Positions 1,485 to 42,080 of a stretch of 64,000 nt of DNA are shown here, one piece after another. The notes beneath the pieces were generated by a model, which worked only from the letters and a program-made list of their open reading frames with translations, searched no databases and was not told the DNA's origin. How positions within the stretch are numbered: the first letter of the stretch is position 1; each line of letters begins with the position of its first letter. This DNA comes from Dehalococcoidia bacterium. Its GTDB lineage: Bacteria > Chloroflexota > Dehalococcoidia > SM23-28-2 > HRBIN24. The position numbers were made by a program, and so were the translations under genes. Location: the NCBI GenBank assembly GCA_025062275.1, contig JANXAP010000035.1, positions 1-64,000 of the forward strand. The letters are read 5' to 3'.

Positions 1485-1664
1485 GTGCAGGAGGACCCTG
1501 CTGTCCTGCTGTCGCGGCTCGGCCTGAGACCCCCACCCGAGGACGATGGGCCCCTGCGGGCCTATCTGGGGATGGTGGGGCAGGCGCTGGACATCCTCTC
1601 CTCCCTTCCCATGGGCGAGACGGCGCCGGCCGTGGCCTTCTACGCTCCCGTGGCCGAGGGATGA
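1485..1664 (+). CDS. GatC/AtzG-like small amidase subunit
   Basis: A 59-residue gene starting at GTG 1485, one base after the JAMM stop, and overlapping the amidase start as ATGA (stop TGA 1662-1664, amidase ATG 1661). An AGGTGCAGG stretch around 1461-1475 is the only weak ribosome site, so it probably depends on coupling. The product has a helical N-terminal part (LLSRLGL) and a second helix (YLGMVGQALDILSSLPM), then an extended tail (VAFYAPVAEG). This layout is typical of GatC and the AtzG/DUF4089 subunits that wrap around amidase-signature enzymes. Placement directly upstream of an amidase supports the same role. It is short enough that automated gene calling may miss it. Confidence 0.7.
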   Translation: MQEDPAVLLSRLGLRPPPEDDGPLRAYLGMVGQALDILSSLPMGETAPAVAFYAPVAEG

Positions 1665-3073
1665 GCGCACAGCCCCTGCCCGTCCGCACCCTGGCCGAAG
1701 CTTCGCAGGCCCTGGCCCGCCGCGAGCTGTCGCCTCTGGAGTTGACGGAGACCTGCCTGCGGCGCATCGAGGCTCTGGAGCCGCGGCTGAACGCCTTCAT
1801 CACCGTTACGGCCGAGCAGGCGCTGGCCGAGGCGCGCCGGGCCCAGGAGGAGCTGGCCAGGGGCGAGCACCGCGGCCCCCTGCACGGCATCCCCGTGGCC
1901 GTGAAGGACCTCTTCCACACGGCGGGCGTCCGCACCACCGCCGGCTCGAAGTTCCTGGCCCGGTCGGTGTCCCGAGAGGACGCCACGGTCGTGGCGCGGC
2001 TGCGGCAGGCCGGGGCAGTGCTGGTGGGAAAGCTGAACCTGCACGAGTTCGCCTTCGGTGCCACCAGCGTAAACCCCCATTACGGGCCGGTGCGCAATCC
2101 CTGGGACACGGAGCGCATAGCTGGTGGCTCCTCGGGGGGATCGGGGGCGGCGGTGGCAGCGGGCGAGTGCCTCGCTGCCCTGGGCACCGACACTGGCGGC
2201 TCCATTCGCATCCCCTCGGCCCTGTGCGGCATCACCGGCCTGAAGCCCACATTCGGACGGGTGAGCACTCACGGCGTCATACCGCTGGCCTGGACTCTGG
2301 ACTGCGTGGGCCCCATGTGCCGCACCGCTGAGGACTGTGCCCTGGTGCTTTCCGTCATCGCCGGGCCCGACGGCCGAGACCGGGCGGCGGCCAGGATGCC
2401 GGTGCCCGACTACGCAGCCGGGCTGGATGGCGGCGTGCGAGGGCTGCGCATCGGGGTCCCGCGAGAGCACTTCTTCCAGGGAATATCGGAGGAGGTGGGG
2501 GCTGCCGTCCGTCGCGCCTTGGAGGTGCTGTCGGAGCTGGGGGCCGAGGTGCGGGAGGTGTCCCTGCCCCATATGGATGTGGTGCCCACAGCGGCGGGCG
2601 CCATAACCCTCGTGGAGGCCCTGGCCTACCACCTGACGTGGCTGCGGGAACGTCCCCAGGACTACGGGCAGGACGTGCGCCTGCGTCTGGAGATGGCCGC
2701 CCTCTACCCTGCCGTGGCCTACGTGCAGGCCCAGCGCGTGCGGGCGGCTGTCATCGAGGCCTGGCAGCGCCTCTGGCAGGAGATCGACCTGCTGGCGACG
2801 CCCACCACGCCCATCGTGGCACCGCCCCTGACGGAGGCGGAGCTTTCGGCCACCCTGGCCCTCATCAGGAACACCAACCCCTTCAACGTCAGCGGGCAGC
2901 CGGCCATCTCGGTGCCATGCGGCTTCGACAGCAGCGGCCTGCCCATCGGCCTGCAGCTGGTGGGTCGCTGGTGGGACGAAGGCACGCTTCTGCGAGCGGC
3001 CCACGCCTATCAGCGGGCCACCGATTGGCACCTGCGCCTGCCTCCCCTGGGGTGGGACGAAGGCGGTGCCTAG
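1661..3073 (+). CDS. Amidase-signature hydrolase (GatA/AtzE-like)
   Basis: The 470-residue protein is a full amidase-signature enzyme. The Ser-cisSer-Lys triad is Lys82 (in PVAVKDLF), Ser157 in the GGSSGGSG loop and nucleophile Ser181 in DTGGSIRIP. Such enzymes hydrolyse carbon-nitrogen bonds of amides or biurets, or serve as the GatA ammonia-generating subunit. It is coupled by ATGA overlap to the small GatC/AtzG-like subunit, but no gatB is nearby, so a stand-alone amidase plus chaperone subunit (as in AtzE-AtzG) is more likely than tRNA amidotransferase. Substrate unknown. Confidence 0.85.
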   Translation: MSAQPLPVRTLAEASQALARRELSPLELTETCLRRIEALEPRLNAFITVTAEQALAEARRAQEELARGEHRGPLHGIPVAVKDLFHTAGVRTTAGSKFLARSVSREDATVVARLRQAGAVLVGKLNLHEFAFGATSVNPHYGPVRNPWDTERIAGGSSGGSGAAVAAGECLAALGTDTGGSIRIPSALCGITGLKPTFGRVSTHGVIPLAWTLDCVGPMCRTAEDCALVLSVIAGPDGRDRAAARMPVPDYAAGLDGGVRGLRIGVPREHFFQGISEEVGAAVRRALEVLSELGAEVREVSLPHMDVVPTAAGAITLVEALAYHLTWLRERPQDYGQDVRLRLEMAALYPAVAYVQAQRVRAAVIEAWQRLWQEIDLLATPTTPIVAPPLTEAELSATLALIRNTNPFNVSGQPAISVPCGFDSSGLPIGLQLVGRWWDEGTLLRAAHAYQRATDWHLRLPPLGWDEGGA

Positions 3074-35245: not shown

Positions 35246-37249
<2,004 letters not shown>

Positions 37250-37253
37250 GGGG

Positions 37254-38054
37254 ATGGTGCACGCGATGGACGACTATCTGGAGATAGCCGGCAAGCGCTT
37301 TCGCTCTCGCCTCATAGTGGGAACGGGGCGCTTCCGCAGCATGGAAGAGATGGTGGCGGCCATCGAGGCCTCGGGCGCCGAAATGGTGACGGTGGCCATC
37401 CGCCGCCTACCGCTGGACCGTCCCGACGAGCCCAATCTGATGGACTACATCGACTGGACCCGCTATCAGATCCTGCCCAATACTGCCGGCTGCCGCACGG
37501 CCGAGGAGGCCATCTTCACAGCCCAGCTCGCCCGCGAGCTGACGGGCAGCAACTGGATAAAGCTGGAGGTGGTGCCCGACCCCCGCTATCTGCTGCCCGA
37601 CCCCATCGGCACCCTGCGGGCGGCCGAGAAGCTGGTGGCCGACGGCTTCGTGGTCCTGCCCTACATCCACGCCGACCCGGTGCTGGCGCGGCAACTGGAG
37701 GAGGTCGGCTGCGCCACCGTCATGCCCCTGGGCTCCCCCATCGGCTCCGGCAGGGGCATCTTCACCCTGGAGGAGCTCCAAATCATCGTCGAGAACGCCC
37801 GGGTGCCGGTGGTGGTGGACGCGGGGCTGGGTGCCCCTTCCGATGCCTCCCTGGCCCTGGAGGTCGGCGCCGATGCCGTCCTGGTGAATACGGCCATCGC
37901 CCAGGCCAGGGACCCGGCGCTGATGGCCCAGGCCTTCCGTCTGGGCGTGGAGGCGGGACGGAAGGCGTATCTGGCAGGCCGCATCCCCAAGAAGCCCCTG
38001 GCCGAGGCCTCCAGCCCTACCGAGGGCGTGCCGCGGCCGGCCTCCAGCATGTAG
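37254..38054 (+). CDS. thiG: Thiazole synthase
   Basis: ThiG builds the thiamin thiazole from deoxyxylulose phosphate, dehydroglycine and ThiS thiocarboxylate. The TIM-barrel protein (266 residues from ATG 37254; ATG 37266 also possible) has [12 protein letters not shown], the Schiff-base lysine in [26 protein letters not shown] and [13 protein letters not shown], with [13 protein letters not shown] later. Follows thiC by four bases. Confidence 0.95.
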
Positions 38055-38073: not shown

Positions 38074-38733
38074 GTGCGAGACCTGGGCCGCCCCTTCTTT
38101 CCAGTCCCCTGCCTCATGCTGGTGACGGACCGCCGCCTGTGCTCCGACCTTCCGTGGGCGGTAGCGCAGGCCGTGGCCGGCGGGGCCAACCTGGTCCAGC
38201 TGCGGGAGAAGGACCTGCCGGCGCGCGAACTGCTGGCGCTGGCGCAGGCCCTGCGACGGGCCACCGCCGGCCGTGCCCTGCTCCTGGTCAACGACCGGGC
38301 TGATGTGGCCCTGGCCGCTGGAGCCGACGGCGTCCACCTGCCCCAGGAGGGGCTGCCTGTGGCTGTGGCCAGGCGCCTGTTGGGGCAGGACAGGCTGGTA
38401 GGGCGCTCGGTCCACTCTCCCGACGAAGCGGCCAGGGCCGAGGCCGAGGGTGCCGACTATGTGGTGGTGGGGCCTGTCTATCCCACCCGTTCCCATCCCG
38501 ATGCCGTCCCGGCAGGCCCGGGCCTCATCGCTCGCGTGCGCGAGTTGGTCCGCATTCCGGTCCTCGCCATCGGCGGCATCACGCCCGGGACGGTGTCCGA
38601 GGTCATGGCCGCCGGCGCGTCGGGGGTGGCCGTCATCTCGGCTATTTTGGGTAGTGGGGAGCCGCAGGCGTCGGCTGCCGCCCTGCGCTCGGCCCTGGAC
38701 GTCGCCTGGGCGGAGGTGGGCAGACGGACATGA
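38074..38733 (+). CDS. thiE: Thiamin-phosphate synthase, first copy
   Basis: ThiE joins the pyrimidine and thiazole phosphates. The 219-residue product has [29 protein letters not shown], the glycine-rich [12 protein letters not shown] and [10 protein letters not shown], all standard. Start is GTG 38074. The last bases overlap thiS as ATGA. A second thiE lies at 40348. The two differ in the pyrophosphate-loop region (YPTRSH here, FPTTSK there); both keep the basic binding residues. Confidence 0.9.
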
Positions 38734-38993
38734 TACGTGTGGTCATCAACGGGCGCGAGCAGTCCCTGGAGCGCCCCCTGACAGTGGCCGAATACGTCAG
38801 CTCCCTGCCCGTCAACCAGCGCTGGCTGGCTGTTGCCAGGAACGGTGAGGTGGTGCCGCGCCATCGCTGGCCGGAAGTCGTCATCCAGGACGGGGACGTC
38901 ATCGAGGTGGTGCGCATGGTGGGCGGGGGCGCCCCCGGAGATGGTAGAATGGTGGAGGCCCAGACACGACCGGCTCGATTCATCAGGGGGTGA
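38730..38993 (+). CDS. thiS: Sulfur carrier ThiS with a C-terminal tail beyond Gly-Gly
   Basis: The ubiquitin-like carrier holds sulfur as a thiocarboxylate on its last glycine and passes it to ThiG. The fold pattern ([45 protein letters not shown]) is clear. The normal protein ends at the glycines (65-67 here), but this frame continues for 20 more residues (starting APGDG and ending RFIRG) before TGA. For activity the tail would have to be removed, or another Gly-Gly protein serves. ATGA overlap with thiE. No thiF is in the window. Confidence 0.88.
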   Translation: MIRVVINGREQSLERPLTVAEYVSSLPVNQRWLAVARNGEVVPRHRWPEVVIQDGDVIEVVRMVGGGAPGDGRMVEAQTRPARFIRG

Positions 38994-39000
38994 CGGGGTA

Positions 39001-39176
39001 TGACGAAGTGGCTTCTGATGGGCTTCCTTCTGGGCATCGCCACCGGTTTCGCCTTGGGCATGCTCACCGCGCCATCGCGAGGCTACGAGGTCCGCCAGCG
39101 GCTACGGGAGCGCGCCCAGCCGGCCGTGGAGCGCATGCGGGAGCGCATCCGCATGATGCGGCAGCGGGCCGCCTAG
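39001..39176 (+). CDS. Small YtxH-like membrane protein
   Basis: A 58-residue gene begins seven bases after thiS. It has one hydrophobic helix (WLLMGFLLGIATGFALGMLT, residues 4-23) then APSRGYEVRQRL and a basic helix, the pattern of YtxH proteins (G-x-x-x-G helix followed by AP-x-x-G-x-E-x-R). GGGGTGACGGGGT precedes ATG 39001. Its stop shares CTAG 39173-39176 with the convergent hydrolase. It is short enough to be overlooked. Confidence 0.7.
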
Positions 39177-40347: not shown

Positions 40348-40974
40348 TTGCCGTCGGTGAATCTGCGAGGCCTGTACGTCATAGTCGACCCGGCAGCCGG
40401 CGCCCAGGGACGGGAGCTGGAGGTGGCCAGGGCCGCCCTGGAAGGGGGCGCCCGCTTGCTGCAGTTGCGCGACAAGACCCGCGAAAAGGGCCTCCAGCTC
40501 CCCGTTGCCCGCGAGATGGCCCGCCTGTGTCGCGAGCACGGCGCCCTGTTCATCGTCAACGACCACGTGGACCTGGCCCTGGTCTGTGGGGCCGACGGCG
40601 TCCACGTCGGGCAGAAGGACCTGCCGGTGGCAGAGGTCAGGCGCATCGTCCCTCCCGGCTTCATCGTCGGTTGCTCCACCAACAACGTCCATGAGGCGTC
40701 GATGGCGCAGGCCGACGGCGCCAGCTACGTCTCCGTCGGTCGGCTCTTCCCCACCACCTCCAAGCAGGACACCCGCCCCGCCACCCTGGAGGTGCTGCGG
40801 GCCATCAAGGCTGCTGTGCAGTTGCCGGTCTGCGCCATCGGCGGCATCAACGAGGAGAACATAGATGCCGTGCTGGCGGCGGGGGCGGATATGGTGGCGG
40901 TCATCGCGGCGGTCGTCTCCGCTCCCGATCCACGGGAGGCGGCCAGACGTCTCGCTTCCCGGTTCGCGCCCTAG
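40348..40974 (+). CDS. thiE: Thiamin-phosphate synthase, second copy
   Basis: A second ThiE-family protein of about 208 residues with LLQLRDKTREKG, LFIVNDHVDLALVCGADGVHVGQKDL, YVSVGRLFPTTSKQDTRP and VCAIGGINEENIDAV. The motif set is complete, so it may be the main synthase, with the copy at 38074 specialised, or it may prefer other thiazole substrates. Start is uncertain: TTG 40348 or GTG 40357, neither with a good ribosome site, so a leaderless message is possible. Ends on CTAG shared with thiO. Confidence 0.88.
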   Translation: MPSVNLRGLYVIVDPAAGAQGRELEVARAALEGGARLLQLRDKTREKGLQLPVAREMARLCREHGALFIVNDHVDLALVCGADGVHVGQKDLPVAEVRRIVPPGFIVGCSTNNVHEASMAQADGASYVSVGRLFPTTSKQDTRPATLEVLRAIKAAVQLPVCAIGGINEENIDAVLAAGADMVAVIAAVVSAPDPREAARRLASRFAP

Positions 40975-42080
40975 GCGAGAAAGCGGGCCGGGCTGAAAGG
41001 GTCCAGGGGCAGGTCCGTAGGCTGTCCCGTGAGGGCCTGGGCGAGCAGGCGGCCGGTGATGGGGGCCAGAAGGACGCCGTTGCGGAAGTGGCCGCTAGCG
41101 ACGCTCAGCCCATCCCAGCCGGGCACCGGGCCAATGATGGGGAGGCCGTCGGGGGAGCCGGGCCGTAGCCCTGCCCAGGCCGCTGCCACCTCCGCCCGTC
41201 CCAGGGCGGGCACCAGGGTGCGGGCCATACGCTGCAGCCTCCGCAGTCCCCGCTGGGTGGTCCGACGGCGAAAGCCCACAGCCTCGACGGTGGCGCCGGC
41301 ATACGTTACGCCCGTCGCCTTGGGGGCGAGATAACCTTCCGGGCCCCAGACGATGCGCCCCACCGGTCGGCCGCGGTAGGCCAGCATCTGCCCGCGCCGG
41401 GGCGGGGTGGGCAGATGGAGGCCGATGCCTGCCAGCAGCCGCCCGGTCCAGGGGCCGGCCGCCACTACCACCTGCCGCCCGCGCACGATGCCGCTGGGCG
41501 TCCGCACCCCGTAGACCCGACGGCCTCGGCGGACGATTCCCAGCACGGGCGTCGAGAGAAGGACGCGGGCACCCCGGGCCTGGGCTGCCCGGGCCAGGGC
41601 GTGGGCCAGGAGCTGCGGCTCCACCTGCCCCTCGGCCTCCGAGAGGACGGCGGCCCTCACCCCCGGCGACAGGGCCGGTTCCACCGCCCGGGCCTCTTCG
41701 CCCTCCAGCCAGGTCAGGGGCAGGCCCGTGTCGAGCTGCCAGCGGTAGCGGCGGCGCAACGACTCCTCGTCTTCGTCGGTCAGGGCGACCCGCAGCAGCC
41801 CGCAGCGCGACAGGCCGATGTCCAGGCCGGTAGCCTCCTCCAACTCGCGGGCGAGCGACGGGAACAGGGCGAGGCCGGCCAGACACAGCTCCAGGAAAGG
41901 GCCGGGGCCATGGGCCTCGGCCAGGGGGGCGAGCATCCCCGCCGCCGCCCCCGATGCCTCCTCGGCCAGCCCGCCCCGCTCCAGAAGCAGCACCTGGAGG
42001 CCGCAGGAGGCGAGGCTGTAGGCAACGGCGCAGCCGACGACGCCTCCGCCGATGACGATGGCGTCGCTCTCGTCGTCCAC
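40971..42080 (-). CDS. thiO: Glycine oxidase
   Basis: ThiO oxidises glycine to the dehydroglycine needed for thiazole formation, using FAD and oxygen. The 369-residue product has the FAD motif IVIGGGVVGCAVAYSLA near residue 8, EASGAAAGMLAPLAE, the middle LSEAEGQVEPQLLAHAL and the C-terminal GHFRNGVLLAPITG. Using ThiO rather than radical ThiH implies aerobic thiamin synthesis. It is convergent with the second thiE, sharing CTAG. Confidence 0.92.
   Translation of the reverse strand: MDDESDAIVIGGGVVGCAVAYSLASCGLQVLLLERGGLAEEASGAAAGMLAPLAEAHGPGPFLELCLAGLALFPSLARELEEATGLDIGLSRCGLLRVALTDEDEESLRRRYRWQLDTGLPLTWLEGEEARAVEPALSPGVRAAVLSEAEGQVEPQLLAHALARAAQARGARVLLSTPVLGIVRRGRRVYGVRTPSGIVRGRQVVVAAGPWTGRLLAGIGLHLPTPPRRGQMLAYRGRPVGRIVWGPEGYLAPKATGVTYAGATVEAVGFRRRTTQRGLRRLQRMARTLVPALGRAEVAAAWAGLRPGSPDGLPIIGPVPGWDGLSVASGHFRNGVLLAPITGRLLAQALTGQPTDLPLDPFSPARFLA

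Follow-up and report, generated by a model that had tools for sequence, protein, structure and literature searches.

The ThiS/MoaD-like sulfur carriers HcyS-Ala of Wolinella, QbsE of Pseudomonas and CysO of Mycobacterium have the residues that follow their Gly-Gly, or a cysteine, removed by the JAMM peptidases HcyD, QbsD and Mec, respectively, and all three pairs serve pathways other than thiamin synthesis. In the MoaD-MoaE and SAMP1-MoaE fusions (Deinococcus DR0402, Haloferax HvJAMM1) and in mycobacterial MoaX, a molybdopterin carrier is fused to MoaE, its Gly-Gly is blocked by the C-terminal sequence, and it is freed by a cut after the last Gly. Release of MoaD-type carriers by JAMM peptidases is proven, namely for HvJAMM1 of Haloferax and DRJAMM of Deinococcus (PMC4443979, PMC8832034), and MoaX is cut after the Gly-Gly, before a Ser (PMC4326299). 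As regards ThiS, its Gly-Gly is internal in the ThiS-ThiG fusions of Proteobacteria and others, and Iyer et al. predicted in 2006 that fused ThiS or MoaD is released by JAB peptidases (PMC1779556); no earlier report of a pro-ThiS, or of a ThiS cleavage experiment, was found in the open literature, most subscription papers lying outside the search.

The locus described here lies in a window of 64,000 nucleotides from a Dehalococcoidia bacterium (genome G000), and it shares with these fusions a Gly-Gly that is followed by further sequence. It differs from the MoaE fusions in that the carrier is a ThiS with a tail that belongs to a set of short, variable, non-domain extensions, and in that cleavage is a prediction from sequence; from the HcyS-Ala, QbsE and CysO systems in that the pathway is thiamin synthesis and that the JAMM and thiS genes are 37 kb apart; and from the ThiS-ThiG fusions in that the extension is a tail predicted to be disordered rather than ThiG, while relatives also possess ThiS-ThiO and ThiS-YdcZ fusions. 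The relevant features of the window are as follows.

128-1030, lgt, neighbour of the JAMM gene (named by eye)
1076-1483, + strand, stand-alone JAMM/Prok-JAB peptidase, the proposed trimming enzyme (PF14464, 89.6 bits, 1.6e-25)
1661-3073, amidase gene, neighbour of the JAMM gene (named by eye)
35363-37249, + strand, thiC (NF006763, 1016 bits)
37182-38054, + strand, thiG, thiazole synthase (PF05690, 372 bits)
38074-38733, + strand, thiE, thiamine phosphate synthase, stop overlapping the thiS start (TIGR00693, 176.9 bits)
38730-38930, + strand, carrier part of thiS, residues 1-67, up to and including VRMVGGG (TIGR01683; AlphaFold; dN/dS against G001)
38931-38993, + strand, C-terminal tail APGDGRMVEAQTRPARFIRG plus TGA (reading of the open reading frame; low pLDDT; fast divergence from G001)
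38943-38951, + strand, extended -10-like element TGGTAGAAT within the tail, TGGTACAAT in G001 (by eye only)
39000-39176, + strand, YtxH-like small protein directly 3' of thiS (PF12732, 37.3 bits, slightly below the cut-off of 37.5)
40348-40974, + strand, second thiE/TenI-like gene (TIGR00693, 211 bits)
40971-42080, - strand, thiO, glycine oxidase (TIGR02352, 310 bits)

The thiS gene (38730-38993, 87 codons before a TGA stop) thus stands among thi genes that include thiG, in the order thiC-thiG-thiE-thiS, and the overlap between its ATG and the stop of thiE (ATGA) makes start and frame firm. Residues 4-67 match the thiS equivalog profile TIGR01683 end to end (positions 1-64 of 64; 74.9 bits, cut-off 37.45), and the VRMVGGG motif ends at residue 67 (nucleotide 38930). 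The encoded polypeptide does not terminate in Gly-Gly, as would be expected of a ThiS: GGG is followed by 20 more codons (38931-38990). The AlphaFold model gives pLDDT values of 94-98 in blocks of ten over residues 1-60 and values below 50 at residues 66-84, so that the tail, if translated, is predicted to be disordered and accessible. That this ThiS carries a 20-residue tail had been proposed from the window itself, with coordinates (38925-38993) correct to within two codons, and the tail proves real when judged by the open reading frame, by profile coverage up to residue 67 and by the presence of tailed relatives. The same-genus Bacterium HR24/HRbin24 (G001), an independent assembly, has a tail of 23 residues, APRDGTMVVESRGPDQPTGGERV, which excludes a sequencing error or frameshift as the source; read by eye from GGG onwards, neither the +1 nor the -1 frame has a stop directly at the Gly-Gly. 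Family members carry 18 (G002) and 2 (G003) extra residues, and an order member 5. A genome-wide profile search for a second thiS in G000 returned one thiS-equivalog match in total. Separately, it can be observed that the thi region contains two thiE-family genes (38074-38733 and 40348-40974), of which the latter may encode either a TenI-like protein or another ThiE.

The extension is by no means confined to this genus. A class and phylum survey, supplemented by some genome contig loci and comprising 178 genomes of known JAMM status, mainly Chloroflexota, contains 74 genomes in which ThiS is extended past Gly-Gly, either by tails of 1-39 residues, mostly 1-2, or because the frame continues without a stop into ThiG, ThiO or a membrane protein resembling YdcZ; the Gly-Gly itself is kept in every ThiS match. 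On the ThiG tree, the state of extension, scored as binary, changes at least 25 times (46-59 for shuffled labels), four extension classes require 33 changes, and a single close clade spans tail lengths between 2 and 39. The ThiS-ThiO fusions (L137, L152 and L154, in G166, G238 and G211; ThiO by TIGR02352) are in frame and joined by variable repeat-like linkers, and the ThiS-YdcZ fusions (PF04657; L249, L250, L251, L260 and L311, in G009, G006, G008, G023 and G021) have no stop between the two parts. Their linker, A..(R/I)T.KEPL(V/A), is conserved in the five genomes and contains an AAGGAG-type ribosome site ahead of YdcZ's own ATG. Several tails resemble read-through of repeat-like intergenic DNA (L152, L258).

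A non-random residue after the Gly-Gly (P1'), such as a pro-carrier should display, is found in the 120 unique extended ThiS sequences: Ala occupies this position in 47 and Ser in 24, and Pro, which accounts for 74/531 residues (14%) over the next seven positions, in 0/120. When the non-fusion tails are clustered at 65% core identity, Ala remains enriched at P1' (16/33 against 6/87, p=1e-6), an excess that shared ancestry may inflate. A single substitution of a stop codon can yield S, Q, R, C, L, Y, K, E, W or G, never A or P. Part of the lack of Pro may thus have a mutational cause, and one-step stop loss would not account for the excess of Ala. Such a bias fits the site of a peptidase with a preference for small residues at P1'.

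Taken together, ThiS in this bacterium and in many of its relatives probably carries residues that block its working end and have to be trimmed first. The reading we favour, with a probability of roughly 0.6, is that of a pro-ThiS with a read-through tail. The original thiS stop would have been lost, adding 20 residues encoded mostly by DNA that was formerly intergenic or part of the next gene's leader; the translated tail would be cut off after Gly67, most likely by the stand-alone Mec/JAMM-type zinc peptidase of the genome, which would serve several Gly-Gly sulfur carriers; and the freed Gly-Gly would be adenylated by the single E1, a carrier-MoeB fusion, before ThiS is used by ThiG. A peptidase tolerant of many post-Gly-Gly sequences would leave the stop position free to drift, thus accounting for both the tails of 1-39 residues and the stop-less fusions.

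The candidate peptidase, whose metal ligands had been described as complete, indeed satisfies the JAMM+ pattern of E, HxH and SxxD in its translation (E24, H78-S-H80, S88, D91), and it matches solved JAMM-type proteins (2kks, 2.9e-27; JAMM1 5lda, 5e-10; also 2kcq and 5ld9). No JAMM gene was found in the flanks of thiS at any locus examined, whether in relatives of the window, in the class survey or on genome contigs. In 14 relatives, no more than 5 kb separate a JAMM gene from the E1 gene, the cluster of which in G000 contains a cysteine synthase gene and carrier genes; owing to this proximity to an E1/CysO-type carrier cluster, the main role of the JAMM is probably in a cysteine or general carrier pathway. 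With respect to co-occurrence, all 25/25 Pseudomonadota genomes with extended ThiS have a strong JAMM match and all 27/27 JAMM-less ones stop at the Gly-Gly (Fisher 4.6e-6, not corrected for phylogeny). On the ThiG tree this association stems mostly from one ThiS-ThiG clade and shrinks to about two independent contrasts, none of which runs counter to expectation; L436 and L451, a lineage that branches within the fusions, lack both the fusion and the JAMM. Within the Chloroflexota set, a strong JAMM match is present in 69/74 genomes with extended ThiS; as JAMM is near-universal there, the comparison is without statistical power (Fisher p=0.78).

The five exceptions, G211, G487, G548 and G550 (88-94% complete) and G580 (of unknown completeness), speak for removal of the tail by a protease other than the JAMM, either by general C-terminal trimming or by another dedicated peptidase, as do the lack of linkage between JAMM and thiS, the accessibility of the tail predicted by AlphaFold and the precedent of MoaX, the protease of which was reported as unidentified (PMC4326299). 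We nevertheless regard this as unlikely, since none of the five assemblies is known to be complete, cutting behind the terminal Gly of such fusions is proven for JAMMs (PMC4443979, PMC8832034), and ThiS is untailed throughout the JAMM-less Pseudomonadota.

That one trimming enzyme might serve several substrates is also suggested by the other carriers of G000, read here from the seven listed of its nine PF02597 matches. The single full-length E1 consists of a MoeB-type part joined to a SAMP1/MoaD-like carrier, with AGG where the two meet (G000:C9:52868-53860; L117:4857-5948), and this fusion is conserved in relatives. Beside the cysteine synthase gene, a SAMP1/MoaD-type carrier (G000:C9:54009-54266; L117:6010-6279) ends AGG-EGGR, its counterparts in relatives ending QSGP, DVGG, ACGP (three family relatives) or R, and another carrier of G000 ends AGG-Q. 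Running past the Gly-Gly is thus a habit that ThiS shares with other carriers of this lineage, a point in favour of a trimming enzyme of general use. Extended to much of the Chloroflexota, the favoured reading would have a promiscuous JAMM, linked primarily to the cysteine-carrier system, mature ThiS and other carriers, so that the thiS stop is weakly selected, tails and fusions to ThiO, YdcZ or ThiG recur, and thiamin synthesis depends on JAMM; we give this wider version even odds.

In G000 there is also a free SAMP1/CysO-like carrier ending AVAGG (G000:C9:51107), and with nine PF02597 matches in the genome it could be imagined that such a protein supplies ThiG while the tailed ThiS is inactive or poor and its gene decays. 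This is quite improbable, given that purifying selection acts on the ThiS core (dN 0.10 and dS 0.56 between G000 and G001), that the Gly-Gly is kept in all extended ThiS, that extended ThiS is retained in thi operons across a class, and that the two further C9-cluster carriers for which a type was assigned are of SAMP1/MoaD type and not thiS-equivalog. As a side observation among the carriers, a nitrite/sulfite reductase-like protein (G000:C7:81485-81733; L120:47-1237) has at its C-terminus a SAMP1/MoaD-like carrier with MSGG as its last residues; in actinobacteria, sulfite reductase has been reported in fusion with a ThiS-type carrier (PMC1779556).

Relative to what was already known, the present analysis adds short, variable ThiS tails on the scale of a class, repeated stop loss, fusions to ThiO and YdcZ, a signature at P1' and, in Pseudomonadota, an association with JAMM. 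The 2006 prediction for ThiS fusions thereby gains a concrete and widespread case with a testable cleavage-site signature. If the pro-ThiS reading is true, thiamin synthesis in many bacteria would depend on a deubiquitinase-like peptidase, and proteolytic maturation would allow free drift of the stop codon, a possible route to the origin of fused ubiquitin-like precursors.

The tails themselves are relaxed and diverge fast. Between G000 and G001 the tail shows a dN of 0.48 and a dS of 0.89, on only 20 codons, and in the pair L388/L394 the corresponding values are 0.52 and 0.30, non-synonymous changes being the faster, against 0.08 and 0.51 in the core; no shared motif beyond P1' was found among the compared relatives. 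A regulated pro-ThiS whose extension is directly functional, for instance through translational coupling to, or targeting by, a downstream YtxH-like or YdcZ protein, is very improbable: the tail stop of G001 overlaps the start of the YtxH-like gene (ATGA) and the YdcZ linker is conserved together with its ribosome site, but length varies among close relatives, dN/dS is relaxed and a common motif is lacking. The original prediction of a pro-ThiS activated by JAMM cleavage stands with respect to the real tail, the single thiS and the complete JAMM, to which widespread extension and a constrained P1' can be added, but the control point that it ascribed to thiamin synthesis is unsupported, because tails that vary in length and sequence among close relatives, include intergenic repeat or promoter-like DNA and show relaxed dN/dS look like unconstrained read-through. 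Fast divergence, the appearance of read-through and a promoter-like piece indicate that the tail itself holds no conserved signal. A consensus promoter and terminator scan of the tail called no element, the -10-like one included; the best conserved piece between G000 and G001, matched by eye, is TGGTANAAT, which, with the -10-like element, could belong to a promoter for the YtxH-like gene that follows.
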